64,000 bases of DNA, taken from the NCBI GenBank assembly GCA_964036295.1, contig OZ038466.1, positions 26,295,997-26,359,996 of the forward strand. The letters run 5' to 3'. Made by a program: the position numbers and the translations under genes. The notes beneath the pieces were generated by a model. It worked only from the letters and a program-made list of their open reading frames with translations. It did no database searches and had not been told where the DNA came from. The stretch comes from Plumapathes pennacea. Its lineage: Eukaryota > Cnidaria > Anthozoa > Antipatharia > Myriopathidae. Shown here piece after piece: positions 367-58,644 of the stretch (positions within the stretch are counted from its first letter, which is position 1; each line of letters opens with the position of its first letter).

Positions 367-3230
367 ATGGACTGCAAGAGTGAGTTGAAAAGGATGGCTT
401 ACCTGATGTTCCTCGCCATTACAGGTAAGTTATGTATTTCATTGATGTTTGATTTATCGCGCTTAGAAGTCATTCGATTCATACATAATTTACTTGATCT
501 TGCCGAATATTCCAACACAAAGGTCGAGATTAAACATGTCCGGCGTAATTTACACCGTTCGATTTTACGCAAATATAGGTAGTACAGCCTCTCCGGCAAT
601 GGGGAGCTTAAGTAAACTAGGACGGCGACGGCAACGCCGCACAATTTTGTCCATATTCCTTATGTCTTTGTAACTTTGCCTATTCTTAGGTTGTTCAATT
701 TGTTTCGTTTCAATTTGTCGACGTTCTATTGCGTTCAGGCGTCTCTTACACTCTTACCAAGACAAAAAAACATGACCCTCTTACCAAACAAATCTTGCAA
801 TTCTTGACTCCTATTAAAATTAATTAACTGCTATTATGCATATTGAGTACAATAGTTTACCGACCCTTACCCCTATCCCCTGTTTGTTTCTTTTCAGCTT
901 TCCATGTTGAGGCATCAACAAATGCGTCACACGAGCACGTGTTGCGACAATTTCTGTTTACAGACTATGATAAGAATGTGCGTCCAGTTTTGGACCCACG
1001 GACGGCGATAGAATTGGAACTTGACATAGAACTCAGCAAATTGGTCAAAGTGGTAAATACTTCTTTATAAGATGATCTTTTGTCGATTTCGCGGCTCGTT
1101 GAGCACCGAAGTTGCCAACATGTGTCAGACGGAGGGATCTCTGTTGGCAACAGTTGAAAACCTCACTTTATTTAATGGCCTCGTACTTGTAAAACTGGTT
1201 TGCGATTGGCGACAAAGCTCAAATGTTGCTCGTGATCTTAGGCATGGAAGTGAGATTTTCAGCTGTTGCTCCATGATGCTTTTTTGCTCGCTCGCAACTT
1301 CTGTGCTCAATTCGAGAGATTGACGAGCCTAGTGTACATTCCTCTGTTGAGTTTAGTGGAGCTGTTAGTAAGGGCTCATCGGTTTGTTTGTTGCGCCGTT
1401 TACAGGACAACAAGCAGCAGCTTATGACGACAAGCCTGTGGGTCAAACAGGTGAGAAGAAACGTCGAGTATTTACGAGAGACCTTATTATCTCTGGGCTT
1501 TTACATATGGAAACTGTGTCCAGGGGAGAGAAGAAATTGTCCAGTCGCGTCACTTGTCAACCGCCGCTGACACGGTTATGTTTTTGTTTTGTTTTTACAG
1601 GTTTGGAATAATCCATTCCTGAAGTGGGAACCATCCAAGTTTGGCTACATCCGGAGGATTCTTGTCCCGCCGACGGAGATCTGGGTCCCGGACACCGTAT
1701 TGTACAACAAGTAAGACATACGCGACTCAGACAAACGGTTACCGACTAGGGAGGGGAGGGGCGGGGGAGGGCGTACTGTACAACAAGTAAGAATGCGCGA
1801 CACAGGACAAACGGTTACTGACTCGAATATTAACACTAAATTAGTTCTTGCACCTGGAGAGGGGAGGGCGTACTTTTCTAATAAGATACGACTGCATATG
1901 GTAACGTGAAGATATGAGAAAAATGGTAACTACTTTATTTGTTACTTGTCCAAAACGACTCTAATGATGAAGGGTCTCTGTTGAAAGTCTGTCAATAAAA
2001 GAAGCAAGTGTATAGGTGTGATAAAATGAACGTCAGCAATGTATGTTTTTGTTACCACAGCGGTGACGAAAGCATCTCATTAGCTGGTCACTTGAACAAG
2101 TTCCAGACCTCGGTGATCGTGAAGCATGATGGGACCAACCTTTGGATGTCTCCCGCCACGTTCACCAGCACATGCGCAATAAACACGCGGCTCTGGCCGT
2201 TTGACATTCAAAAGTGCAGTATGACGTTTGGCTCGTGGACTCTGAGCAGGAATCTACTCGTTTTGTCCAATAACACACAGAAGAAATTAAACAATTATGC
2301 AGGCAAGTAAAGTCCAACTGAACCATCACTTGCGCGCGATAGTTTTACAAATTGGATCGGCTATCCAAGCTTGATGGGCCACAAATGATCCGTAGAAGTT
2401 TTGCGTATTAACACACAAGGAATCAGTTAACATTTGCGCGCGTGTAAAATATTTCTTGAACGAGTTACAGTATATTGTGTACAATGTGGTTCTCTCGTTT
2501 TTACTCAGATATTCCTATTTCAGATGCATTTGTAACAAACGGCGATTGGACGATAGTCTCGCTCAAAGTTGAGCGCAACGAACACTTGTACAGTTGTTGC
2601 GAGAACACTTTCAGCGACGTGACGTTCAGCATCATCATGCGCCGCAAACCGTTGTACTACATCATGTATCTCATTGTACCCTGTTTCTTTCTCGCTTTGC
2701 TCACGCTCGCCGGATTCCAAATTCCAACCGAGAATGGAGAGAGAATCGGATTTAACATGACCATCCTGCTGGGCATGACTGTGTACCTGCTGCTCATCGC
2801 TGGATATTTACCTGAAACCTCCGACGAAGTTCCCCTTCTGGGCGTTTATTTCATCCTCACTATCGCTGGGATGGTGCTGGCGGTAATCGCCACTATAGTT
2901 GTGCTCAAGATACACTTCGGTAAATGGACTCCTTGTCAAAAGAGTCGCCGGGCAAAGAGCAACAAGAAATGCTCTCCATCACACGCTGCCGCAGTCAACC
3001 AAGCCGCCCAGGACAGCGATAAATTGGAAATGCAATCCTGTCACTCAGAGTTGAACGAAACAACACCCGAGAGGAGAGATGAGCGTAAAACACAGGACCA
3101 GGAAGCCAGGGAAGCGCGGGAATTCGCCGCAAAAGTGGATCGCATCCTTTTCTGGGTGTTCCTGGTTTACGTGATCGTTTGTTTCGTCGCTGTTTATGCT
3201 AATGCTTCAGCAAGCGATGACTTTGATTAA
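367..3230 (+). CDS. Nicotinic-type (alpha-like) Cys-loop ligand-gated ion channel subunit, gene 1
   Basis: Exons 367-424, 898-1052, 1406-1450, 1601-1710, 2061-2302 and 2524-3230 join in frame to 438 aa. The order is signal peptide (about 1-26), extracellular ligand-binding domain, Cys-loop C161-C175 with WPFD inside, loop B GSWT, the vicinal cysteine pair C228-C229 (YSCCENTF) that marks alpha-type subunits, then four membrane helices (about 247-267, 277-297, 309-331, 410-432). M2 begins GERIGF, so the cation-selectivity glutamate ring is present. The outer-ring position reads IAGYLPE, with Gly where the paralogue and vertebrate alpha7 carry Glu. The family forms pentameric acetylcholine-gated cation channels in the plasma membrane; the ligand here is unproven. 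Intron 5 uses a GC donor (2303-2304). The gene is paralogous to the one at 7523-11094, with identical lengths for exons 3, 4 and 6. Confidence 0.9.
602..745 (-). repeat. Partial copy of a MITE inside receptor intron 1
   Basis: From GGGAGCTTAAG at 602 the sequence runs parallel, with scattered differences, to the reverse complement of 27933 downward. Shared blocks include AGGACGGCGACGGCAACG, then TATTCCTTATG and TTTGTAACTTTGCCT. Only one end of the element is present, so this is a truncated insertion. No coding role is seen. Confidence 0.7.
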
Positions 3231-3879: not shown

Positions 3880-4445
3880 CTGAATAAAAATACTTTTGTC
3901 AACCCTAAAATACCCCACCTATTCAAAACTGTTTTTCTTAAAACTTCTGAAACAGAAAAAGACCGTGGGAGAAAGGGGAGCAGCAGATGTGCAGAATAAG
4001 CAACGAGAGACGAGACAAGAAGAGAAGGTAGCAGAGGAATGTAAGTTTAATGGCCAGGACAACAGATTCAACAGTGTTTGTAGTTCTTGAACCAGGAAAG
4101 TCAAAGCAACAATTTGTTTTAACAATATTTTAAACGTAAGTTCTGCCCACGAAAAACGCGGGATGCACAAGAGGTGAAACTTTACGTCAATATAGTTGTA
4201 ATCTTTAAAACTCGGCAAATTTGCTAACGCTAACTTGCATTAACGCTGATAACAGTCAAACAAGAAGCTACCAACTTGCATTTTTTACCAAATCAGTGAA
4301 GAAACTTTTTCGTATTTACAGGGGTCCAGCTAGTATAGAAATAATGATGGGGCTGACCAAGAAAAGTGACGTCACAGAACATGTTCACGATGTTCAGTTT
4401 ATTGATGACAAATGCTCAAATTTGACAGTATTTTTTTGTCGATGT

Positions 4446-5604
4446 TTAGTTTTTCAGGACCTTGTAGGTGATTACGTAGCCGTAGCGGAACTTGGGGTCA
4501 TCAGGTGTTTTGTGCATCTCAAACTTATTCCTAGAAATCAGCTCCCACGTGTTCTCCTTTTCCAGGAATTCACACGCGCTACTGTAGCCGTGTTCAGCGG
4601 CGTTGTACGATTCCGTACGGATCGTGAAAATAACAAGTCCGCCTGAATAGAAAGATTTCTGTCAACCCTAAAATATCCGACCTACTCTTTTCTTAAGACT
4701 TCTGAAACAGAAAAAAACCGTGGGAGATAGGGGAGTAGGTAGACAATAAACAGCGAGACAGGGGAGCACACGGACGATGAGACATGAAGAGAGGGGAGCA
4801 GAAAAGAAAAAAATGGGTAAAAGACAGACAGCAAAGAACCGGGGAGCAAAAGTGGAACAGGAGACGGAAAGGGGGAAGAGTTAGAATCGATCAGACAATG
4901 TTTGGCCAGCCCAAATCTACCTCTTACCTGGCTTCACTTGCCGTGCAACTTCGCGCAGCCCTTCAGCCCTGGCTTGTCCTACAGCAAATGTTCCCGCGGA
5001 CAATAACGCGTCATACGTCCCAGTCTCCACCTCGGGGATCGGTGTGCCGGTCAGCGGCGCACAAATCAACCGCTTGTAGACGTTCTTCTTTTCGGCAATA
5101 TTCAGCATTTCCTGTGAAATATCCAAAGCATCCAAGTTGGTGAATCCGCGGCTCGTCAGGAATTCCCCAATCAGCCCAGTCCCTGCCCCTGCGTCCATGA
5201 TCTTCATTCCTTTATCAACCCTCGGCACCAGTCCAGCGAGAGCGGCCTCCAGAGCTTCTACGCACTGAATGTGAGCCTGGTAACCTGCACCGGCAATGCC
5301 CTGTGCGCCAGATCGAGGCAGGATAAACGAAATGTGTGTTAGAACACGCTTACCTGTACCAGCAAAAAAGGTTGGAAACCAAGATTGACGGTTTAAGTCG
5401 TTCACTGTGAAAATAATGGTCCAACGTGCAGTTGTTTTCATTGTAGAATTAGTTGTACTGCTTATTGTTGTTACTGTTTTGATGTTGTGTTACCTGTTCA
5501 TACGTGCTCGCCCATTGGTCGAATATACGCCTGTTGTCTTCAGTCGTTGCGTCCGCTGTCAGTCCCAGGATGGAGTCTGGGTATGAGTGTCCAGCGCTCG
5601 TCAT
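4446..5604 (-). CDS. METTL27: METTL27 (WBSCR27)-like SAM-dependent methyltransferase
   Basis: Exons on the minus strand are 5604-5494, 5300-4928 and 4642-4446, joining to 226 aa. The N-terminus contains FDQWASTYEQ, the helix that precedes the class I methyltransferase fold in this family. SAM-binding motif I is MDAGAGTG (about 72-79), followed by LDALDISQEML (about 94-104) for the ribose-binding acidic region, then VKPGGLVIFTIR split across the last intron. Human METTL27 is about 245 aa, so the length fits. The substrate is unknown for the family. The gene lies between the two receptor paralogues on the opposite strand. Its terminal exon has a second intact copy at 3683-3879. Confidence 0.87.
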
Positions 5605-7522
5605 GATGGAACTCTAACAAACACAAAAACAACGATGCGAGATAAAACTTGGTCAGTGGGAAAATGTAGAACATGGAAGTTATGCTGTGATCATAAAAAT
5701 GGTCGACACCCATTGCTTTGCTCCAAGCCCTGCGCGGTTACGAAGCCGTGACCTTTGGTACCCGGAAGGCGTGATGAAAAGTTGTCTCGCATATTTAATA
5801 GGTTACCGTATCTCTATGGGACCACTAAAAGCTCAAAAAAAGTGCCCGTGACGTGCGCGATATCGGCGCTGGCTCTGTTAGTCGCCTACCTCTTCAAAAG
5901 GTTTTCTGACACTTCGATGAGCAATTTATGTCTGCTATTAAATACGGCTTGTAATGTATATTTCGACAGTGAACAAACACGTCCCCACGAACGGATAAGA
6001 ACAACCAAATTTTAGACTGTCTAAAAAAGTTGGGCCGGTCATGAAGCGGCTCACTAATACCTTGACCAATCCAGCTGCAAACACAACATTCACACAAATC
6101 TTTCGATAGTCATCCGAAAACGGTTCCAATAATTGTTGCGTAACTCAGCGGCTTGATGGCATTGCTCAATGAGCACGAGTAGCCCGCTCTAGGCGGGCCT
6201 CGCTTGCAGTTTGCGGGACGGGATTCCTAACCCAAACCCTAACGTACATTAACCCAAACCCCATCCCATACTTTAGATATTCGTTCGCCAGAATGCATTT
6301 CGTTTTTTTCATTTACTTGACGTGGTTGTTTGAACATGATTAGCAAGTATGTCGGTATAAATATGTATTTCATCAAAAGAGTGGCAAGCAAGAAATGACT
6401 TCGTCGGCTAGCTGTGTCACCTTGAATCAAAACCTGTAAACTCTTGCTCACCTCAGAATCCCGTAACTCCCATAAGAATACGCCCGGTCACGCTTGGTGA
6501 AGGTGAAATTCAATCGGTTTACACCAGTCACGTTTGGAATTTAGTTCCCAGCCTCCAGGAATGTAATGGACAAATAGCGTTTGGGGCAGTCAAATCTCAA
6601 AATTTTTAGAAGCTAGAAGCTCGCTTTAAGGTTTGGAAACTGGTCATATTTTATTATTCCTCCTCTGTCTCTCTTTGGTTGTTTTTACGTAAAAGACGTA
6701 AAACCAAAGGCTAACACGATTGATTTCGACTGTGAATCCGACTGAATCGTTTGGGAAATGTTCTTGTTCAGATGATTATCGATGACTGCCGCAACAATAG
6801 ATCTTACCCTGCTTTTTTCTTTTTTTCTTATTTTGCGTGATAACCACAAATAAAGTACTCAAAGGAATTCAATGCATGTTGATTTTAATAGATTATTTAC
6901 TGATGACTTGAGTAACACAATTTGTAGATTGTAGAATCAATCTCAAAATCAAGTTCTGTTAATTTTGAAATTTGCAATTTCATAACTTCGTGTTCGAGGA
7001 AAGTGTAATAATACTGACATTGCTCTGAAACGTCATCACTGAGCGGGACAGTGCTTTACGTGGGCCGTTTTTCGTAATGGTTTTTTTTTGTTTTTGTTTT
7101 TGTTGTTGTTCCTGATTGGCCATGCAAGAATTTGTTTGGACAAATACAAGCACATAGCAGCAAGCACACGGCCTCGCATTATTATTACTTTTGAGAGTCA
7201 ATCCAAAACCACTGTATTATTTTACGAACGAAGTTCCATGAACGTAATCAACCCAAATTTTTTAAGAATATTTGTTCGCGCGCGAACAAATATTCGTACA
7301 ACTAGTGCACTACTCATTAACTCCGCTTAAGCCGGAGATCGACTTTTTGTCATTCATTCCGTCGTGTTTGTGATGGGTCTCTATAAACAAAAAATCTCAG
7401 AGGAATTACCTATTCATGTGCAAATCATAATTACGTCTTTTTTCAAATCCGAACTCAAGCTTCAGTGCTGCCGTGCCAAGCGGATGAGTGGACCGTGCTC
7501 TGTCCTCAGATTCTTGGCAGCA
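5605..7522. other. Intergenic stretch between METTL27 and receptor gene 2
   Basis: No coding exon is supported. It holds a short telomere-like patch (CCCTAACCCAAACCCTAAC, around 6225-6245) and a perfect 30-bp palindrome at 7266-7295. The rest is AT-rich sequence with no structure I can interpret. Confidence 0.4.
7266..7295. repeat. Perfect 30-bp palindrome
   Basis: The left arm GAATATTTGTTCGCG is followed with no spacer by its exact reverse complement. The symmetry breaks on both sides (A at 7265, G at 7296). It lies about 230 bp upstream of the receptor gene 2 start codon. Confidence 0.9.
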
Positions 7523-10500
7523 ATGACAGCGTCGAAAGAAAGTTGGTATCTTTCGCTCCTGGTCATTGGATTTTTACTCGAGATTCAGCAAGGTACGTAT
7601 TGTCAGTAAAACCAACACGTCAAATTACTCTCGGCTTACAAGTTAAAAGGTTGTCGGTTTGGTGTTGTGGGTCCTACACTCGTATGATTGAGACTTATGG
7701 TTGGTAAAGCCTTTGCATTTAACATACTACCTTACTCTTGCTTGTCTCTCACGGCGAAAGCTATTAAAGGTCACTGTATTTTAGAGAAACGAATTCAGTT
7801 TATGGCGGCGATTAACAACGAATCTTCCCAGCGGCATGCATCACTATTTACTTGTAAGAGGAGTTCTATAGCTTTTCCACGGTTTTGTATCAAGTTCTAT
7901 GACTTCTATCTCTGCTTGAATTATAGTCACTAGTTTGTAATTCTGTGTTGTCACATAACTTGTGTCCCTTGAGAATAGATAATTATGTACCTTTACACTG
8001 CAGTGCTTTACAATACTTGGTCTATTCTGACTGAGTAAACCTCGTGCGCCAACTAAGAAATACGAAATAATTCAGTGGGGAAAATAAATCATTTTCAGCA
8101 TCATGTGACACCAAACTTCTCTGATTACAAGCACACCAAATGGAAAAAAAACAATATCTGAAATGTCCAATGTTGAATCAATCAGGGAAACAGCAGCACA
8201 GGAGTTTAATCAGTCCGTAGTGTTAATTAGTCCTTCGAGTAGACCTCGTTTAAGGTTTAGTGGAAAAATGAGCCAAAAAGTAACAATAGAGTTGATTGAA
8301 TCACAGTCAGGATGTAGTACGACTAGTGTTTAGCATTTTGATTTATATTTCTTAGTTATTGTGTTTCCGGCAAATGACTTGTAATCATGGCATGAACATT
8401 TTGTTTGTTGCCGACAGGATTCGTAGCTGCCACAGCACAAACAGCGGAAAAAAAGCTGCGACTGAAACTGTTCGGCAGCTACGACAAATCTGTTAGACCT
8501 GTGAAAAAGCCGGATCAATTTGTGAACGTTTCGTTTTCGTTCAAACTTAGTAAAATTGTGGAACTGGTAAGTACGTGAACATCATATACTGTGTTTTTCA
8601 TTATAACTAGTGTATAATAAACTCATGCCCATCCATATATAATGAGGGAAGGAAAGTTTCTTCAAAAAGTTCGTCTTTTCGTGGACTCTATAGGAGATAA
8701 ATAAAAACGGCAAAAGTGTTTTCATTACGAGTTGCCAATTTTTTATCCCTGAGAAACATTTGAATCTTGACGTCATAGTGAGCCATTTTTTTAGGCAATA
8801 TCCGGTGTTGTGTCCAATGCTCTAGTAGCCTAAAATGTCAGTTTCTCGCCCGGGGCTTGGGTTGAGGGCCGAGGAGACGACTGACGTTTCAGGCTACTCT
8901 AGCCAGCTCCACCATAAACTAAACTTCGATCCGTGAAATGACTTAGAAACCAAGAGTAATGTCGGCATGTTAGCTCCTACTTCTTCATATAAACCAGGCA
9001 GCAAGCAAGGTGTAATTGTGTTGTGTTTACGTCACAGGACAACAAGAACCAACTGCTCACCACAGACGCATGGGTTACGCAGGTGCGTACTGAACAAGCC
9101 GCTGACAAAATTTAGTATTGAGTAGATTAAAGTACAATACCTTTAAACGACTTAGTTGATCCTCTTGATTGCGCTTGTGCAGGAATGGCACAATCCGTTT
9201 CTCAAGTGGAATGAGACAGAGAACGGAGGAATCCACACCATTCACGTTCCACCAGACGACGTGTGGGTCCCAGATATTGTGCTGTACAACAAGTGAGTCA
9301 CGTGACTTTATGATAACATGTAATGCATCAGAAGCGGAGCTAGGAAAACTTCTGATCGGTCAGTCCCGCCAAATGTACGAGCCGAGGGTACGAGCTTGGG
9401 TGTCCTGGAACATGCTCCCCAGGAAAAGCGTCATATTGCGCTTTATAGCCAATCTATAGCCAACTATAACGCCTGTAATAGTTTAAAGTTTATCTTGTTA
9501 CCATCCCGGCCCAGCAAGGGCTCAAAAACTATGATAAGCAAATGGAGCAATTATTCTTGAAAATGTTGAAAGCCGCATGACCAAATGTTACTCATTTCAA
9601 TATTCCAAAGACGTTACGCGGGCGACGCACACGAGTGTTGTACAACAAGCTGGTACTTGCAAATCTTTCGTCCGAACTTTTTAAAACTGCATTTCGTATC
9701 CGTATAAAGTTCCCGAGTCACGTCGTGTAGTGTTACGTTGGGCGATTACGATGCTACAGTTTGACGAGTGCAACAAGCTAGTTCAGCAAACTGATGTATA
9801 CACCTGTCAGTGTTTGACTTTTTTAGGGTTCGACTATTTTTATTTAGAGTTTGTTTAATTCTTTCCTTTTCTTCTCGCCAAATGCAGCGGCGATCAAAAT
9901 GTCTTGCTGTCAGGGTTTGTAGAGAAGTTCAAGACCTACGTGATTCTAGAGAGTAGTGGTCGAAGCAACTGGATGTCGCCAGCAACATTCAAGAGCTCGT
10001 GCACGCTGGACATCGAGTACTTCCCGTTCGACACACAAACATGCAGCCTCACGTTTGGCTCTTGGACTTACGACAACAGAATGCTTAAACTGTGGAAACT
10101 GCGCAGCGACCACTCTTTTGCAGGTTGGTGCACTACATTACTCGTGCGTCTAGTAGTCTGACAGTTAGAAGAATCTGCTTGCTTACGAATGCGACCACGC
10201 ACTATGCACGCACGCACACACAACTCATAACACGCGTGTCACAGGCGCAGAGAACTTGGCTCGTTTGCCTTTATGTAAGCCCACACATACTGCAGCTTGA
10301 TGTTAGGATATCGTAAGACGACGTGCAGAACAGTGGGTGCGCAGCAAGCCATACTGCATATCAAGTTTTTCTTACTTCTTTTGACAGACAAATTCACTTC
10401 CAGTGGCGAGTGGGATATTGAGAAAGTGAAGATAGAGAGAATAGATCAGAAGTACGACTGCTGTGAAAACCGTTTCTCTGACGTCACGTACTCGATCACC

Positions 10501-11094
10501 ATGACGCGGAAACCCTTGTATTACGTCATGTACCTAATCTTGCCGTGTCTCGTCATCTCGCTGCTCGTTCTGTTAAATTTCCTCATCCCCGCGGAAAGCG
10601 GTGAACGGATCGGCTTTTGTATCACAATTTTGCTCGCCATGAGTGTGTATCTTTTACTGGTCGCTGAATCCCTTCCAAAAACCTCCAAGAGTGTACCTCT
10701 GATTGGCTACTACTACATTGCCACCATGTTCGAAATTGCGTTGGCTCTTGCCGCAACGACCGCCACTCTCCGATGTCACCATGGCAATGGGAAACCTCCC
10801 ACGTGGTTGATTCGCATAACGAGCCGAAAAAACCGAAACAACGAAGTTAAAGCTTTTGAACACAGGCGGGACAAACCAGGTGACAAAGAGAAAGCGGGAT
10901 CGGTACAGGAGGGGGGTGGTGACAGTAAAGTCCTGGATGCCGTGTCCACACTAATCGAGCAGCAAAAAGACGACAGCGCTTCACGGGAACAGTGGAACGA
11001 GATATCCAGAGCCCTTGACAAGTTCTTTTTTGTTTTATTTTTCTTCTTGACGATTATTGTCGCACTTTGCACCCTCATTTTCCCCAGACTTTAG
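7523..11094 (+). CDS. Nicotinic-type (alpha-like) Cys-loop ligand-gated ion channel subunit, gene 2
   Basis: Exons 7523-7592, 8418-8566, 9038-9082, 9183-9292, 9888-10123 and 10388-11094 give 438 aa, the same total as gene 1. A hydrophobic leader (SLLVIGFLLE) opens the protein. The Cys-loop is C163-C177 with the canonical FPFD, loop B is GSWTY, and the vicinal cysteines are again C228-C229 (YDCCENRF). M2 starts GERIGF and ends VAESLPK, keeping the outer-ring Glu that gene 1 lacks. The M3-M4 loop is short and charged, and M4 is the very hydrophobic C-terminal segment. All six exons match gene 1 in phase, so the two arose by tandem duplication. An in-frame ATG at 7484 would add 13 residues; 7523 gives the better signal peptide. 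Ligand unknown. Confidence 0.9.
8822..8902. repeat. Imperfect hairpin-forming dispersed repeat in receptor gene 2 intron
   Basis: AGTAGCCTAAAATGTCAGTT is followed about 40 bp later by a near reverse complement (GACTGACGTTTCAGGCTACT), 17 of 20 positions pairing. Part of the right arm with its flank (GAGGAGACG then CTGA..TTTCAG) recurs around 17510-17540, so it is a dispersed element rather than a local structure. Confidence 0.5.
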
Positions 11095-33900: not shown

Positions 33901-34977
33901 ATTATTTTCTTCACATTTCATTTACTGTTTGATACAATTCAGAATCAGCAATTAAAAATCCTTGTCATCTGCAATGTACCTTGGTTGAGACATTATAACT
34001 GACATATCCTCCAACATGTTTTTCTGGATCATCTACCACTACACACAGATCTTTCACAGTGTCATGGCGAATAGGAGCAGGGCTGTCTATCTTCAGAGAA
34101 TCCATGAGTGCTTCATTCTGATCAAGGCTCGAGTCCAAAACTGACGAGTCACCAGGGTCTTCCACACTCTGAATAAGGACAAAAAATCCAAAAGTTTCAT
34201 GTAGTCATCCAGCCCAAGTGAGTCACGTATGTAACACAGAAAACTGTAACATGACTAGCTCACATGATTGATGCATTCTTTCCTACCATCTTATTCTTGT
34301 ACATCTTCTGATAATTAGCTCACATAATTTCCCCCTTCCATTAACTGGGTTACATCAACTTTAGTCTTCCATCCACCTACCTCTCAGCTATCTGCAACTC
34401 ATGTATGATTCTGATATTTTCACGATTATCCTCACTCCACCGCACCCCCTGGGGGGTGGGGGGGGGTATATATACTTTAGTCAATGTTCAGTGAAGAGTA
34501 GGTATTTAAAGTCTAAGAACGTCTTTTTTTTAATTACATTGTATAACCTTATTTGTCCCTGTTCATTATCTCATAGCATAGGATCCGAGTCACAAATCAT
34601 TAAAAACGCCCGTTCACGTAGGAAAAAATACAAACACGAGAAAGGCCGCAGGTTCAAAAGATTTACATTTAATGGAGTAGGTCTCAAAATATCTGATGAA
34701 AAAAAAATTGCTTCACGTCGTGGCTGGGAAGTATTTTAATGACTGCTTCAAAATGGTCGATGCGTTCTGAGAGTTCCGATCGATGACTCATTCACGGTTT
34801 TGTTTTGTAGTCGGCCAACAATGAAGCTTCATTAGGTCTACATTAGCGAAATACGCGCCTTTTATCTAAATATGTGAAACGGGGACAAACCTCTGGTAAG
34901 AAAGCGGCTAATGAGTCTGAAACTTCAGTTTTCCCATTAGAATCTCCATTCGGAAGATTGCTATCCACGTCCGCCAT
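30996..34977 (-). CDS. SNX30: Sorting nexin of the SNX7/SNX30 type (PX-BAR)
   Basis: Eleven minus-strand exons: 34977-34891, 34168-33980, 33659-33549, 33396-33232, 33028-32833, 32734-32604, 32466-32398, 32283-32197, 32013-31906, 31588-31436 and 31067-30996. All phases agree and give 455 aa (human SNX7 and SNX30: about 451 and 437). The PX domain (about 72-180) shows [16 protein letters not shown], the phosphoinositide-binding VRRRYQDF at 105-112, PLPEKH and LNRIADHP. The rest, with [22 protein letters not shown] and [16 protein letters not shown], is the membrane-curving BAR region. These proteins bind PI3P on endosomes, pair with SNX4 and act in recycling and autophagy. The last acceptor but one was chosen by phase (31588, after CAG). 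SNX7 and SNX30 cannot be told apart by eye. Confidence 0.9.
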
Positions 34978-35088
34978 ATTGTCCTTGAAGAAACTAATCG
35001 ATTAAAAGTCGGCTGTGCATGTGACCCGATTATCATTTCGGTTCATTTCGGTCGATTTAAAAATGGCGGCCATCTGATTGAAACGGAT
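34978..35088. promoter_or_regulatory. Bidirectional promoter between SNX30-like and ARL16
   Basis: Only 111 bp separate the two divergent start codons. The interval contains AAAATGGCGGCCATCT (about 35059-35075), a good match to the YY1 motif seen in TATA-less bidirectional promoters. There is no TATA box at a useful distance. Confidence 0.65.
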
Positions 35089-35652
35089 ATGGCAGAAACG
35101 CAAATTCTTGTTCTGGGGCCAGAGGGAGCGGGGAAAACTTTGATGCTGAAAAGGCTTCAGACTATATCCTCTCAACAAAATCTGCCCCAACGCGGCGCAC
35201 ATCCACCAGAGCTTGGTATGGCGCCAGTGACTATTCCCACAGTCGGCGTTAATTTAGCGACTGTCACTTTCAACAAACGAAAGATCACTTTACGAGAACT
35301 TGGAGGAGTAATGGGACCAATTTGGGCGAACTACTTCAAAGATGCAAGTCGTTTGGTGTATATCATGGACGCTGCAAACCAGGTCCAGCTATCGTCATCT
35401 TGTATTCAACTTCTGGAAGTGTTGTCTGCCAAACAAACACAAGCGATGGCGGTTTTATTGATTTTCAACAAACTCGACTCGCCTAGTTTTATGAACATGA
35501 CTGAGTTACACGGTATCATTCATCTTAAAGACATAAAGGCTTTTGCCAAACAAGACATCACTGTTCTTGAGGCAAGTTTCCAAACTGGGCAAGGAATGGA
35601 GGAAATAATCAAATGGCTTACACGGGCAGACGACACATCGTCCTCAAGATGA
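35089..35652 (+). CDS. ARL16: ARF-like GTPase ARL16
   Basis: A single exon encodes 187 aa. The P-loop is GPEGAGKT (about 10-17). The switch I threonine lies in TVGVN, the G3 region is RELGG rather than the usual DxGG, and the G4 motif is NKLD. The phrases GPIWANYF, LVYIMDA and FAKQDIT match my memory of human ARL16, which shares the unusual RELGG, so this is a family trait and not damage. The N-terminus lacks the myristoylated amphipathic helix of ARFs. Vertebrate ARL16 has been linked to ciliary protein export from Golgi; the role here is inferred. The gene is divergent with the sorting nexin. Confidence 0.92.
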   Translation: MAETQILVLGPEGAGKTLMLKRLQTISSQQNLPQRGAHPPELGMAPVTIPTVGVNLATVTFNKRKITLRELGGVMGPIWANYFKDASRLVYIMDAANQVQLSSSCIQLLEVLSAKQTQAMAVLLIFNKLDSPSFMNMTELHGIIHLKDIKAFAKQDITVLEASFQTGQGMEEIIKWLTRADDTSSSR

Positions 35653-53016: not shown

Positions 53017-53722
53017 ATAAGAATAGTGGAAAATTATGACAGCTCCAGATATACAGGACAAACCTAATCACTGTATGCTTGGACCAAGGGCCAGACAGGT
53101 GTAAAGAACACTAACTGCTACCAATCAAGCAATGTGCAGATGAACAAATATATTTCACTGAAAGATTTGTTGAGGCTACTGCAGTATCAAGCAAGACAGT
53201 ATCAAGAGCAGCAGGAACGTAATGAAGATACATAATAGCTAAATATGCAGTGCAGTGCAACTTTGAACATTCAACCATGTAGGTTGGCAAAGAAAGTGAA
53301 GTACAGTGTATGTCTGGTGAAGATAGATGAACAGTTGTGTTGAATACAGTGTCAAGAAAAGTAAAACTTACCCTGTGTAAAAACCATAGCACATTCATAA
53401 AGTTTATTTGTAAAAACACATTATTATTGTTTTGCACTCAGAAATGCTGACAACTGTGCAAGGCTACACTGAATTCTATGAAATAAAATAATTTTTATTT
53501 CCCATGCACTTTAAATTCTGCACAAGGAACTTTCAATTAGTTCAATTTGTACTATGACTTTACTGATAATTTAATTCCAGAACTAACTGCTCTTATGTTC
53601 TATATGGAGCTACAAAATACAATCTTTGAAGTTATCAAACATAAAGATTAACATGGGGGAAATTTCAACAAATTAACTGACACTAAATCTGTGCACAGCT
53701 GGAAATGCAACAGTTGCATAAT
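53017..53722. other. Interval after the 124-aa gene
   Basis: It presumably holds the 3' UTRs of two converging genes. Nothing else is recognised. Confidence 0.35.
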
Positions 53723-53896
53723 CATGGTCTGGGCAGAATGAACTCATTTGGGGTTGTGGTCTCTTGTATTGTATCACAATCATCGGCTGGACAGAATGAA
53801 CTCATTCGGGGATGTCGTCTCTTGTATTGTCTCGCAGTCAGTGGCTGGACAGAATGTACTCGTTTGGGGATGTCGTCTCTTGTAGTGGCTCATACT
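53723..53896 (-). repeat. 58-bp unit repeated three times at the 3' end of the modular gene
   Basis: Units marked by CAGAATG at 53734, 53792 and 53850 are spaced exactly 58 bp. The first unit in the sense direction encodes the last residues of the cytoplasmic tail (through NEYILSS and the stop). The two further units lie after the stop codon. Since 58 is not a multiple of three, each unit shifts the frame relative to the last. Confidence 0.85.
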
Positions 53897-56800
53897 TATT
53901 GCAGTATTTCTGCCACGCTTCTCTGCTGTGCTTTGCAGTCCACCAAGTGAAGATGCCAATCGCCAACACGACTGCTATCAAAGACACAACGATAATAGCA
54001 GTTTGTGCTTTACTGTTGCCAGTGTCACCATCCTTGACACTTTCCTGGGGAACATCAGCCTACGATTTGAACGGAAGTTATTTTAGTCTTTACACAATGA
54101 TGCTGACCATCAACACTGTATGATAATAGCACATCACCTGGTACTCTGACCCCAGACCTCGTGGTCCAGCGGCCATATTTTGTGGTGGTTCAGTTGGTTC
54201 AGTTGGCTCTGTGGGTTCAGTAGGTTCCACTGGCTCTGTTACTTTTGTGGTGGAAGCTATCCTCGTCATTGGTGGTTGGGTTGTTGAAGAGATAGTTGTT
54301 GATCCTGCTGTACTTGATTGCTGAGTTGTCGGAGGTTGAGTGGTTGCTGGTGGTGTGGTGGTTGGAGGTTGAGTGGTCGCTGGTGGTGTGGTGGTTGGAG
54401 GTTGGGTGGTCGCTGGTGGTGTGGTGGTTGGAGGTTGGGTGGTCGCTGGTGGTGTGGTGGTTGGAGGTTGGGTAGTCACTGGTGGTGTGGTGGTTGGAGG
54501 TTGGGTGGTCGCTGGTGGTGTGGTACTTGGAGGTTGGGTAGTCACTGGTGGTGTGGTGGTTGGAGGTTGAGTGGTCACTGGTGGTGTAGTACTTGGTGGT
54601 TGAGTGGTCGCTGGTGGTGTGGTGGTTGGAGGTTGAGTGGTCGCTGGTGGTGTGGTACTTGGAGGTTGGGTAGTCGCTGGTGGTGTGGTGGTTGAAACAG
54701 TCATAGGTGACGATGCTTGACCTGTAGTTGGTGAACTTGTTTGATTCACACAAGCAGGATTTTTGTAGTCATGGGTATAGTGACAAGGAACATGGCAAAA
54801 GTCAGCCTGTACAAAAATAAACAGGTGTTCTAAATCAAATCATTTCAGTGTACTGTGTAAGAATATTAGATAAAGTAGGGACACCAGTTCATCTCTTCTC
54901 TGTATGACTTTCACTTTTCATATTATACATGTAAAAAGGAGAGGTAAAGACAATATTCACCAGAATCCTGTTGTTGAAGGAGCCACCAGTAATGTAACAT
55001 GAGTGAGGCCCAGTCCATCCCCACCAACACAGGCAGCGACCAGTGCTTAGGCACTGACCACGGAACACTCCTGGGGGAGGGACACAGGACAACAAAGTCA
55101 GGGTTTGTCACAGATCCAGTGAATAGAACACTAGTAAACTTACCTGCACCACACTGTGGATCACAGGGGACGGGTGGGGTCACATTTCTACTGGGTATAC
55201 TACACGGTGATGGAGGAGTTGGTATGTTGGCACATGCTGGGTTGTAGTAGTCGTGTGTATAGTGACAAGCGGTGGTGCAGTAGTCGGCCTGTGGGTAAAA
55301 CATGACAATGAAAGCAGTCAGATAACATAAATACCAACTAAAAAACCTGAATTATCAACAAAAATGAGGTACTACATGTACATCACCAAAAACACCATAT
55401 TTAGACAAACAGCACTGCATTCCATACTGGACCAGTATATTCACTTACCACAATGCGGTTTTTCAAGACTCCAGAAGTGATGTATGTTGCATTAGGTCCA
55501 GTCCAGCCCCACCAACACAGGCACTGTCCATCAGACAGACACTGGCCTTGACCAGGAATCTTCGTACAGCGGGGATCACACTGAGCCTCTGTGGACAGAA
55601 AATCACGACTTAGTGTAAAATTTACACTAATGTAAGTACCAATAAGACAAATGTGGAACAACGATAGACATAGTTCGCAGAGAGATGGATAAGAATGGAC
55701 AGGAAATTGTACAGGAAAATATGTGGTTTGGGAGGGGAGGAGAAAGCAGATAAAAAAAGAAATTTGGGAGACAGTGGAGAACTCTATTTGCATCAAGGAA
55801 ACTGAAGAGGAGAATGACAGAGAATATAAGCAGTGCATGCAAGGACAGAACAGAACAGGCAATGAAACCTAATAACAATATAATAATTTTATTATTATAT
55901 AGTCACAAGAAAGGTTCCTTACTTGGCTTTTGCAGATTTCTGTGTGCTTTAATTATCAAAGTTTTCTTGAAAACTTGTTGTTTCCTTGTTACTAAAGCAG
56001 TTGTATTGACACAGGCAGGATTTCTGTAGTCATGAGTGTAATGACAAGGGACATGACAAAAGTCAGCCTGAAAAAGAGGAGATCATCACAAAAAATTAAG
56101 AAAGTTTATATCTTTCTAACAAAAATGAAACCCAAGAACATTAACTGTTGCAGAATACACTGACAATAATAAATTTAGATCGTGAAAATTCAATCATTGT
56201 TTGTTTACTTTTACAAACTTGAAAGTGCTTTAAAAGTACTTTGAAAGCCAGCAGTCTTCAGATGTGAGCCACGGCTTGATAAACAAGCAAGCCTAAAATA
56301 TCTATGACCATCACAGAAGGATATGGCATAAATAATGTTGTCCACCTTACCAGAATCCTGTTGTTGAAGGAGCCACCAGTAATGTAACATGAGTGAGGCC
56401 CAGTCCATCCCCACCAACACAAGCAGCGGCCAGTGCTTAGGCACTGACCACGGAACACTCCTGGGGGAGGGACACAGGACAACAAAGTCAGGGTTTGTCA
56501 CAGATCCAGTGAATAGAACACTAGTAAACTTACCTGCACCACACTGTGGATCACAGGGGACGGGTGGGGTCACATTTCTACTGGGTATACTACACGGTGA
56601 TGGAGGGGTTGGTATGTTGGCACATGCTGGGTTGTAGTAGTCGTGTGTGTAGTGACAAGCGGTGGTGCAGTAGTCGGCCTGTGGGTAAAACATGACAATG
56701 AAAGCAGTCAGATAACATAAATACCAACTAGAAAACCTGAATTATCAACAAACATGAGGTACTACATGTACAACGCCAAAAACACCATATTTAGACAAAC

Positions 56801-58644
56801 AGCATTGCATTCCATACTGGACCAGTACATTCACTTACCACAATGCGGTTTTTCAAGACTCCGGAAGTGATGTATGTCGCATTAGGTCCAGTCCAGCCCC
56901 ACCAACACAGGCACTGTCCATCAGACAGACATTCACCTTGACCAGGAATCTTCATACAGCGGGGATCACACTGAGCCTCTGTGGACAGAACATCACGACT
57001 TAGTGTAACACTGTAAGTACCAATAAGACAAAATGCGGAACAACGATAGACATAGTTCGCAGAGAGATAGATAAGAATGGACAGGAAATTGTCCAAAACA
57101 ATATGTGGTTTGGGAGGGGAGGAGAAAGCAGATAAAAAAAGAAATTTGGGAGACAGTGGAGAAATCTATGTGCTTCAAAGTAACTGAAGAGGAGAATGAC
57201 AGAGAATATTGGCAGTGTAGGCAAAGACAGGACAGAACAGGAAATGAAACCTATACAAACTGCTAACTGCTCTGTATAATAATAATAATTATTATATATT
57301 TATTTTATTATTATAGTCACAAGAAAGGTTCCTTACTTGGCTTTTGCAGATTTCTGTGTGCTTTAATTGTCAAAGTTTTCTTGAAAACTTGTTGTTTCCT
57401 TGTTACTAAAGCAGCTGTATTGACACAGGCAGGATTTCTGTAGTCGTGAGTGTAATGACAAGGGACATGACAAAAGTCAGCCTGAAAAAGAGGAGATCAT
57501 CACAAAAAATTAGGACAGTTTACACTAACAAAAAAAAAACAAAAAAACAAAAAACAAAAAAACAAGAAACTTAACTGTTGCAGAATACACTGACAATAAT
57601 AGATTTAGATCATGAAAAAACCACTCATTATTTGTCTGCTTTTACAAACTTGAAAATACATTAAGAGTGCTTTGAAAGCCAGCAGTCTTCAGCTATGAGC
57701 CAAGGCTTGATAAACAAGCTAGCCTAAAATATCTATGACCAGTCACAGAAGGATATGGCATAAATAATGTTGTCCCACTTACCAGAATCCTGTTGTTGAA
57801 GGAGCCACCAGTAATGTAACATGAGTGAGGTCCAGTCCATCCCCACCAACACAGGCAGCGACCAGTGCTTAGGCACTGACCACGGAACACTCCTGGGGGA
57901 GGGACACAGGACAACAAAGTCAGGGTTTGTCACAGATCAAGTGAATAGAACATTAGTAAACCTACCTGCACCACACTGTGGGTCACAGGGGACAGGTGGG
58001 GTCACATTTCTACTGGGTATACTACACGGTGATGGAGGGGTTGGTATGTTGGCACATGCTGGGTTGTAATAGTCGTGTGTGTAGTGACAAGCGGTGGTGC
58101 AGTAGTCGGCCTGTGGGTGAAAAATGATAATGAAACAGATAAAGTAAGTACCAACTAGAAAACCTGAATTATCAATAAACATGAGGTACTACATGTACAT
58201 CACCAAAAATGCCATATTTAATAGACAGATAGCATTACATCAAGTTCCAGCAGAAGTGAAATAAAGTGAAATTATAGGACACAGAATCACTATACTCACC
58301 ACAATGCGGTTTTTCAAGACTCCTGAAGTGATGTATGTCGCATTAGGTCCAGTCCAGCCCCACCAACACAAACACTGTCCATCAGACAGACATTCGCCTT
58401 GACCAGGAATCTTCATACAGCGGGGATCACACTGAGCCCCTGCGGATAGAAAATCACGACTTTCTATAGATTCATAAATTCATGCAACCTATAAAATAAG
58501 GAATGCAGTTAAGTTTGAAAGTGCTAAGAAAACTAAAGAGAAATGTGCACTATAAACAGACTGACTATGCAGCGATTTCTTCTCACCTTGTGTAAAAGAC
58601 AGGAATGGTGAGATCAGGAACAAAATCAGGACTGCAGTCCTCAT
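53838..58644 (-). CDS. Modular Trp/Cys-rich, mucin-stalked type I membrane protein, 802 aa
   Basis: Fourteen minus-strand exons, all in phase: 58644-58587, 58439-58300, 58110-57966, 57892-57783, 57481-57337, 56978-56839, 56678-56534, 56460-56351, 56067-55923, 55588-55449, 55288-55144, 55070-54961, 54806-54138 and 54044-53838. After a signal peptide come three 180-residue repeats, each of two modules of the form CDPxC, GxCLSxGxCLCWWGWTGP, YITxGxxxNRI, ADxC, CHYTHDYxNPAC. The front part is EGF-like; the CHYTHDY part I do not recognise. The third repeat runs into a Thr/Pro stalk of eleven 11-residue units (PPATTQPP type), a Pro/Glu/Thr segment, one helix (about 749-769) and a 33-residue tail with YEPL and NEYIL. 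It is probably a surface adhesion or recognition protein; that is inference. Confidence 0.85.
54332..54694 (-). repeat. 33-bp coding minisatellite (mucin stalk), 11 units
   Basis: Eleven tandem 33-bp units encode the TTTPPATTQPP theme with A/V and S/T exchanges. The array lies inside exon 13 of the modular membrane protein. The dense Thr/Pro composition is typical of O-glycosylated stalks. Unit number is likely to vary between alleles. Confidence 0.9.
54806..58439 (-). repeat. Three tandem genomic copies of a four-exon block (about 1.26-1.46 kb)
   Basis: Blocks 58439-57337, 56978-55923 and 55588 downward each contain exons of 140, 145, 110 and (in the first two) 145 nt; in the third the last exon is fused to the mucin exon. 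Introns are duplicated as well. The first three exons of blocks 2 and 3 are displaced by exactly 1390 bp each time, with almost no differences, which indicates a recent duplication. Block 1 is more diverged. Confidence 0.9.

Follow-up and report, generated by a model that had tools for sequence, protein, structure and literature searches.

A predicted surface glycoprotein of Plumapathes pennacea with three AB pairs of modules that join an EGF-like half to an unmatched three-cysteine extension

The window analyzed here comprises 64,000 nucleotides of the Plumapathes pennacea genome (assembly GCA_964036295.1, contig OZ038466.1, positions 26,295,997 to 26,359,996 of the forward strand), and a gene on its minus strand that codes for six cysteine-rich modules is the subject of this study. 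Judged by its sequence, it is probably an intact and selected gene for a type I single-pass surface glycoprotein, built on three AB units, that would act in adhesion or recognition as a multivalent receptor; this reading is preferred because the predicted layout and the measured constraint both fit it. The first half of each module appears to be an EGF-class domain; what seems to be new is the three-cysteine extension that follows it. Surface location, glycosylation, pairing of A with B, binding, and uptake are all things that we infer from the predicted protein.

The gene model consists of 14 exons, and its joined exon frame runs on the minus strand from the ATG at 58644 to the TGA that ends at 53838, encoding 807 residues without an internal stop (table 1). 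These are exactly the limits that an earlier sequence-only reading had given for a repeated, mucin-stalked receptor. All introns are of the GT-AG type (13/13) and the phases are consistent, so that the exon joining proposed in that reading stands as a coherent model. The exon borders were set by hand to satisfy GT-AG ends and phase and the splicing is predicted only; the acceptor of the last intron (cgttcaaatcgtag) has no pyrimidine tract and is weak. The predicted order of the protein is a signal peptide, six cysteine-rich modules, a Thr/Pro stalk, one membrane helix and a tail of 33 residues with the motifs YEPL and NEYIL, in agreement with the layout described before.

The modules fall into two types and follow each other in the order A B A B A B. 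Over 65 aligned residues, modules of the same type share 63–65 residues and A and B modules share 41–42. The motifs CLCWWGWTGP and ADxCxxxCHYTHDYxNPAC are each present in six out of six modules, which upholds that part of the earlier description; what was described as six copies is better counted as two types in three recent AB units, which are not independent of each other. Units 1 and 2 differ by 11 out of 453 bases and no amino acid, and the two comparisons with unit 3 give 18 and 22 base differences, with three residue changes in each case. When exons and introns are taken together, units 1 and 2 are 86.9% identical over 1362 bases and units 2 and 3 are 97.5% identical over 630 bases. Between units 1 and 2, 90 out of 830 aligned intron bases (10.8%) and 14 out of 540 exon bases (2.6%) differ; in the well-aligning parts of units 2 and 3 no contrast between introns and exons is seen (6/233 intron bases and 10/395 bases in the exons A1, A2, and B1). 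In unit 3, neither the second part of the last module exon nor the intron before that exon can be aligned to the other units, and whole-unit totals with unit 3 were excluded. On these alignments, the three AB units arose by recent duplication. The near-invariance of the modules is partly a matter of recency, because the intron-inclusive DNA of the units still aligns, and it is to this extent weaker evidence than had been supposed; the pattern of the substitutions nonetheless shows purifying selection.

An intron in phase 0 separates the two halves in all six modules, which indicates that the halves were duplicated together. Introns in phase 1 are found on both sides of units 1 and 2 and on the 5′ side only of unit 3, and the phase 1 intron within each unit that precedes B falls after the second cysteine of B. 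From these phases it follows that the second half does not form a symmetrical exon of the kind moved by shuffling. Four exons make up each of units 1 and 2, and the phase 1 introns on either side would allow such blocks to be gained or lost in frame. Together with the similarity of units 2 and 3 across introns, this would suit a defense or allorecognition receptor in which the number of units varies among individuals by unequal exchange between near-identical units. We consider such a role improbable: the residues are kept between units (zero to three differences), the opposite of the diversity expected for polymorphic recognition, and no second gene was found among the best-scored candidates in the genome.

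Nonsynonymous divergence (dN) between A and B modules is 0.33–0.35, and synonymous divergence (dS) is 2.0–2.6 in three out of nine comparisons and saturated in the other six. AB units 1 and 2 show a dN of 0 and a dS of 0.12. For each of the three AB pairs, none of 20000 neutral simulations resulted in as few amino acid changes. The second half alone behaves in the same way: no simulation out of 20000 was as conservative as the B module of unit 3 compared with those of units 1 and 2, and 0, 0, and 1 out of 20000 were as conservative as the A–B comparisons across the three units. The B modules of units 1 and 2, with a single changed base in this half, form an uninformative pair (4519/20000). These tests mark the gene as coding and show purifying selection on the two halves of the module, the unmatched half included. 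Gene conversion could also keep the units alike; by itself it would not be expected to favor synonymous changes.

The first half of the modules matches known EGF families. Residues 1–546 exceed the Pfam cut-offs for EGF_Teneurin (PF23106, 58.2 bits, cut-off 24.3, expectation value (E) 8e-16) and EGF_2 (PF07974, 39.8 bits, cut-off 22.1, E 5.6e-10), with six matching stretches for each family when counted at a lax E of 10, and a single AB pair passes both (28.3 and 23.9 bits). The EGF resemblance noted in the sequence-only reading is thereby confirmed. Its proposal of an undescribed module is narrowed to the second half, for which no significant match was obtained. Both A and B carry the teneurin/tenascin-type spacing C-x3-C-x8-C-x5-C-x-C, and B contains the full CxCxxGWxGPxxC core. 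All three B modules have six cysteines in EGF order; none of the three A modules does, as the sixth is missing, and some teneurin EGF domains are likewise one cysteine short. In contrast to teneurins, every EGF is trailed by a three-cysteine extension and the layout is that of a type I rather than a type II protein. No Pfam match to the teneurin beta-propeller or YD repeats was found in residues 1–546 or in the last exon, and the predicted protein is not a teneurin.

The second half alone has no significant Pfam match: two of the three pieces scanned hit no family and the third only zf-HIT (E 0.071). Modules that include the second half returned no significant match in NCBIfam (0 families with two queries) or among PDB sequences. 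All candidates that appeared were rejected. A match to Glyco_hydro_109_C over residues 149–194, which overlaps a B second half, scored 14.5 bits (E 0.021) against a cut-off of 27, and NAD_binding_5 (E 0.38), efb-c (E 2.4), and CYYR1 (E 3.5) were below their Pfam cut-offs in residues 1–546. When one module was used as the query, the best match among PDB sequences was a chain labelled ubiquitin (E 0.052); with a profile it was P-selectin (E 0.14), and a cytochrome oxidase subunit aligned to the second half (E 1.6), all of them insignificant. Alginate lyases (E 0.32–0.93) resemble the end of the EGF half over a brief stretch, which is regarded as chance.

Two explanations of the second half were weighed. 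It is possible, and we propose it tentatively, that ADxCxxxCHYTHDYxNPAC represents a small disulfide domain of a new kind, in which HYTHD might be a His-Asp metal site, and that it forms one binding module with the EGF in a lineage-restricted cnidarian receptor whose functional unit would be an interlocked AB pair. The alternative, which we find rather doubtful, is a truncated and degenerate EGF in which C-x3-C-x10-C represents the first three cysteines and the C-terminal half was lost; the module would then be one and a half EGF domains and contain nothing new. Both halves do begin with C-x3-C, which continues as C-x3-C-x8-C in the first and as C-x3-C-x10-C in the second, and the multi-EGF model EGF_TEN of Pfam spans a second half (residues 117–235, profile positions 70–190), although its 31.8 bits are under the cut-off of 65. 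The best stretches of both single-EGF models, however, stop ahead of the second half, isolated pieces of the second half match no EGF model, and nothing in the EGF half corresponds to CHYTHDY or NPAC. As a distinct disulfide unit, the second half would extend the set of extracellular modules, provide a clear example of cysteine exchange between paired repeats, and supply a defined surface marker with a ligand that can be sought; as a degenerate EGF, it would amount to ordinary repeat tinkering in a cnidarian receptor.

Type B has six EGF cysteines and three in the second half (nine), and type A has five and three with one more in the linker (eight, or nine with the linker), an NAT sequon replacing the sixth EGF cysteine. 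The count is odd per module and even per AB pair (18, with 54 in the ectodomain), which suggests most simply that the odd cysteines connect A with B, a bridge between two chains being the alternative. In a teneurin study, EGF domains 2 and 5 are described as having five cysteines and forming covalent cis dimers (PMC6297184). Several motifs for glycans are also present. WWGW occurs in six out of six modules and is a W-x-x-W motif, the motif given for C-mannosylation (PMC8433626). In module B, C-WWGWTGPHS-C fits the broad consensus for O-linked N-acetylglucosamine (O-GlcNAc) on EGF domains, C5xxGx(T/S)Gx2-3C6, with W at the position where the narrower form has Y, F, or L before Thr/Ser (PMC5388531). 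Type A lacks the last cysteine of this consensus. N-glycosylation sequons are found at five places in the protein.

The stalk (residues 532–720) contains 71 Thr and 55 Pro among 189 residues, and the membrane helix is the only segment after residue 30 with a hydropathy above 1.6. In the tail, YEPL fits the YxxPhi motif. NEYIL sits in a 58-bp array of which two more copies follow the stop codon, reading NEFILSSR and NEFILPRP and each ending in a stop. As these copies carry NEF instead, a role of NEYIL as a phosphotyrosine motif is doubtful, and the end of the tail may be a by-product of a young repeat. YEPL and YILS do not give YxxL/I twice, and an immunoreceptor tyrosine-based activation motif (ITAM) was rejected on this consensus. 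Matches of the last exon to Sigma_reg_N (E 0.0083) and DUF6377 (E 0.16) are both below the Pfam cut-offs.

A signal peptide, Thr/Pro tandem repeats, a single helix and a cytoplasmic tail are shared with membrane-bound mucins of the MUC1 and MUC4 types, and the protein might accordingly be a membrane-bound mucin or glycocalyx component in which the stalk is functional and the modules merely cross-link. In addition to the 11 tandem 33-bp units of the stalk, this is in line with most membrane mucins, which combine a helix and a cytoplasmic tail with EGF domains (PMC9080433). We nevertheless judge it unlikely. SEA, NIDO, AMOP, and VWD domains are not among the seven families listed for residues 1–546 (E up to 10) or the two for the last exon, two scanned stretches that take in only a small part of the stalk; at 189 residues the stalk does not reach the length of the module region, and the modules are constrained in the neutral simulations, which concern the modules only. 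The cysteine modules also precede the stalk, unlike in MUC1 and MUC4. MEGF10, PEAR1, and Draper are also type I receptors with tandem EGF-type repeats; for this group, PF23301 matched only at E 0.63. They differ from the present protein in the EMI domain, which is not among the matches of residues 1–546, in EGF units that are fewer and interrupted here, and in the tail, which is short here and without the NPXY and ITAM motifs typical of theirs.

In a multivalent surface receptor, as preferred here, each module would consist of a teneurin/tenascin-type EGF and a three-cysteine extension that are inherited together, the O-glycosylated stalk would keep the repeated modules away from the surface, several weak binding sites could cooperate, and YEPL may drive uptake. 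A and B would act as a pair, with the odd cysteines joining A to B or else connecting two receptor chains in the manner of the five-cysteine EGF domains of teneurins. A number of points weigh against this interpretation. Adhesion is deduced solely from the layout, and the protein could instead be secreted, be shed, or serve as a structural part of the glycocalyx. Conservation was measured by comparisons inside one gene only, a lone module B is slightly under the Pfam cut-offs (21.8 bits for PF23106 and 19.8 bits for PF07974), and with an even number of cysteines in the ectodomain an intermolecular bond is not required. AlphaFold2 on single exons gave mean predicted local distance difference test (pLDDT) scores of 61.9 for exon 2 and 42.7 for exon 3 and no trustworthy model. 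Finally, a teneurin-2 construct with the EGF-like part alone reportedly failed to clump cells (PMC6297184), and such EGF repeats therefore need not be the binding part.

A search of the genome (290 Mb in 24 contigs) found no second gene with the module; only the best candidates were scored, so that the counts are lower bounds and divergent paralogues could escape. The pattern CHYxHDY has six matches in the genome, all within this gene (one match for the reversed control), and CxCWWGW has eight, of which six are within this gene. The two others, on contigs C1 and C9, show no module within the 900 bases read around them. Weak matches on C6 (E 0.173, with one stop) and C12 (E 2.68) likewise revealed no module on reading, the former lying near apparently CHAT-like sequence; a query with the tail gave one more weak match on C12 (E 4.55). 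External searches for homologues covered prokaryotic and viral collections. None of 46 pattern matches in the viral contig collection was confirmed. A total of 128 pattern matches in the prokaryotic collection left two confirmed loci, in Halomonas and in a gammaproteobacterial metagenome-assembled genome, where the matches span 16 and 19 residues; these are treated as chance because on reading they begin in or continue into coding sequence of an unrelated kind. It may be that the module is widespread and already named elsewhere. In the open-licence papers searched, WWGWTGP, HYTHDY, and WWGWTG do not occur, CHYTHD is found only in an unrelated paper on plant YTH genes, and no description of this protein was found.

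Table 1. Features of the predicted gene by position in the 64,000-nucleotide window
Feature	Position	Strand	Basis
Exon 1: signal peptide (MRTAVLILFLISPFLSFTQ) with the start codon, phase 1 at its 3′ end	58587..58644	-	hydrophobic N-terminus judged by eye, without a predictor
Exon 2: EGF-like half of unit 1 module A, 5 Cys, without the sixth EGF Cys	58300..58439	-	gene model, alignment, Pfam
Exon 3: second half of unit 1 module A, extra-Cys linker, Cys 1-2 of module B	57966..58110	-	gene model, alignment
Exon 4: remainder of EGF-like half of unit 1 module B (6 Cys in total)	57783..57892	-	gene model, alignment, Pfam
Exon 5: second half of unit 1 module B and basic linker	57337..57481	-	gene model, alignment
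Exon 6: EGF-like half of unit 2 module A	56839..56978	-	gene model, alignment
Exon 7: second half of unit 2 module A, linker, start of module B	56534..56678	-	gene model, alignment
Exon 8: EGF-like half of unit 2 module B	56351..56460	-	gene model, alignment
Exon 9: second half of unit 2 module B and linker	55923..56067	-	gene model, alignment
Exon 10: EGF-like half of unit 3 module A	55449..55588	-	gene model, alignment
Exon 11: second half of unit 3 module A, linker, start of module B	55144..55288	-	gene model, alignment
Exon 12: EGF-like half of unit 3 module B	54961..55070	-	gene model, alignment
Exon 13	54138-54806	-	gene model
Second half of unit 3 module B (ADFCHVPCHYTHDYKNPACVN), 5′ part of exon 13	54744..54806	-	gene model
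Stalk core inside exon 13: 33-bp tandem repeat, 11 copies, Thr/Pro units of 11 residues	54331..54694	-	tandem-repeat scan
Exon 14	53838-54059	-	gene model
Membrane helix (TAIIVVSLIAVVLAIGIFTWW) inside exon 14	53940..54002	-	hydropathy
Cytoplasmic tail: YEPL, NEYIL, stop codon	53838..53939	-	gene model
58-bp tandem array, 2.8 copies, covers the last codons and extends beyond the stop	53720..53884	-	tandem-repeat scan

Several other genes were recognized in the window. The divergent neighbor on the plus strand from 59878 starts with MFEKTLTDLVRGIRNNKNNE, which resembles the start of AP-3 delta (AP3D1); a short piece of it gave no match in Pfam. Further plus-strand genes encode an Arf-family GTPase (34921–35652, E 6.5e-27) and mitochondrial ribosomal protein L55 (40939–41487, E 3.5e-21), and an open frame with Methyltransf_25 (E 4.2e-10) lies on the minus strand (4917–5489). 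Two open frames at 2460–3230 and 10279–11094 match Pfam Neur_chan_memb (E 1.9e-23 and 9.5e-30, respectively), the membrane-spanning part of neurotransmitter-gated ion channels, and are possibly tandem paralogues.

Contig 24 of the assembly is the mitochondrial genome (17.7 kb), in which two tRNAs were found, tRNAMet and one with the anticodon tca that is read as tRNATrp. A gap of ~850 bases interrupts COX1 (4437–6950) directly after the V of HHMFTV; inside it lies an open frame of 250 residues (5186–5938), probably an intron homing endonuclease. Counted by the human numbering, the split presumably corresponds to position 884. According to two studies, COI-884 is present in 81% of the sea anemones inspected and in several hexacoral orders, and COI-867 in zoantharians (PMC8146996, PMC6545197). 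The genes ND1 and ND3, recognized by reading as was ND5, of which the 5′ part was not seen, adjoin the 3′ part of ND5; the location of ND1 and ND3 within an ND5 intron is known in Actiniaria and Zoantharia from the same studies (PMC8146996, PMC6545197).

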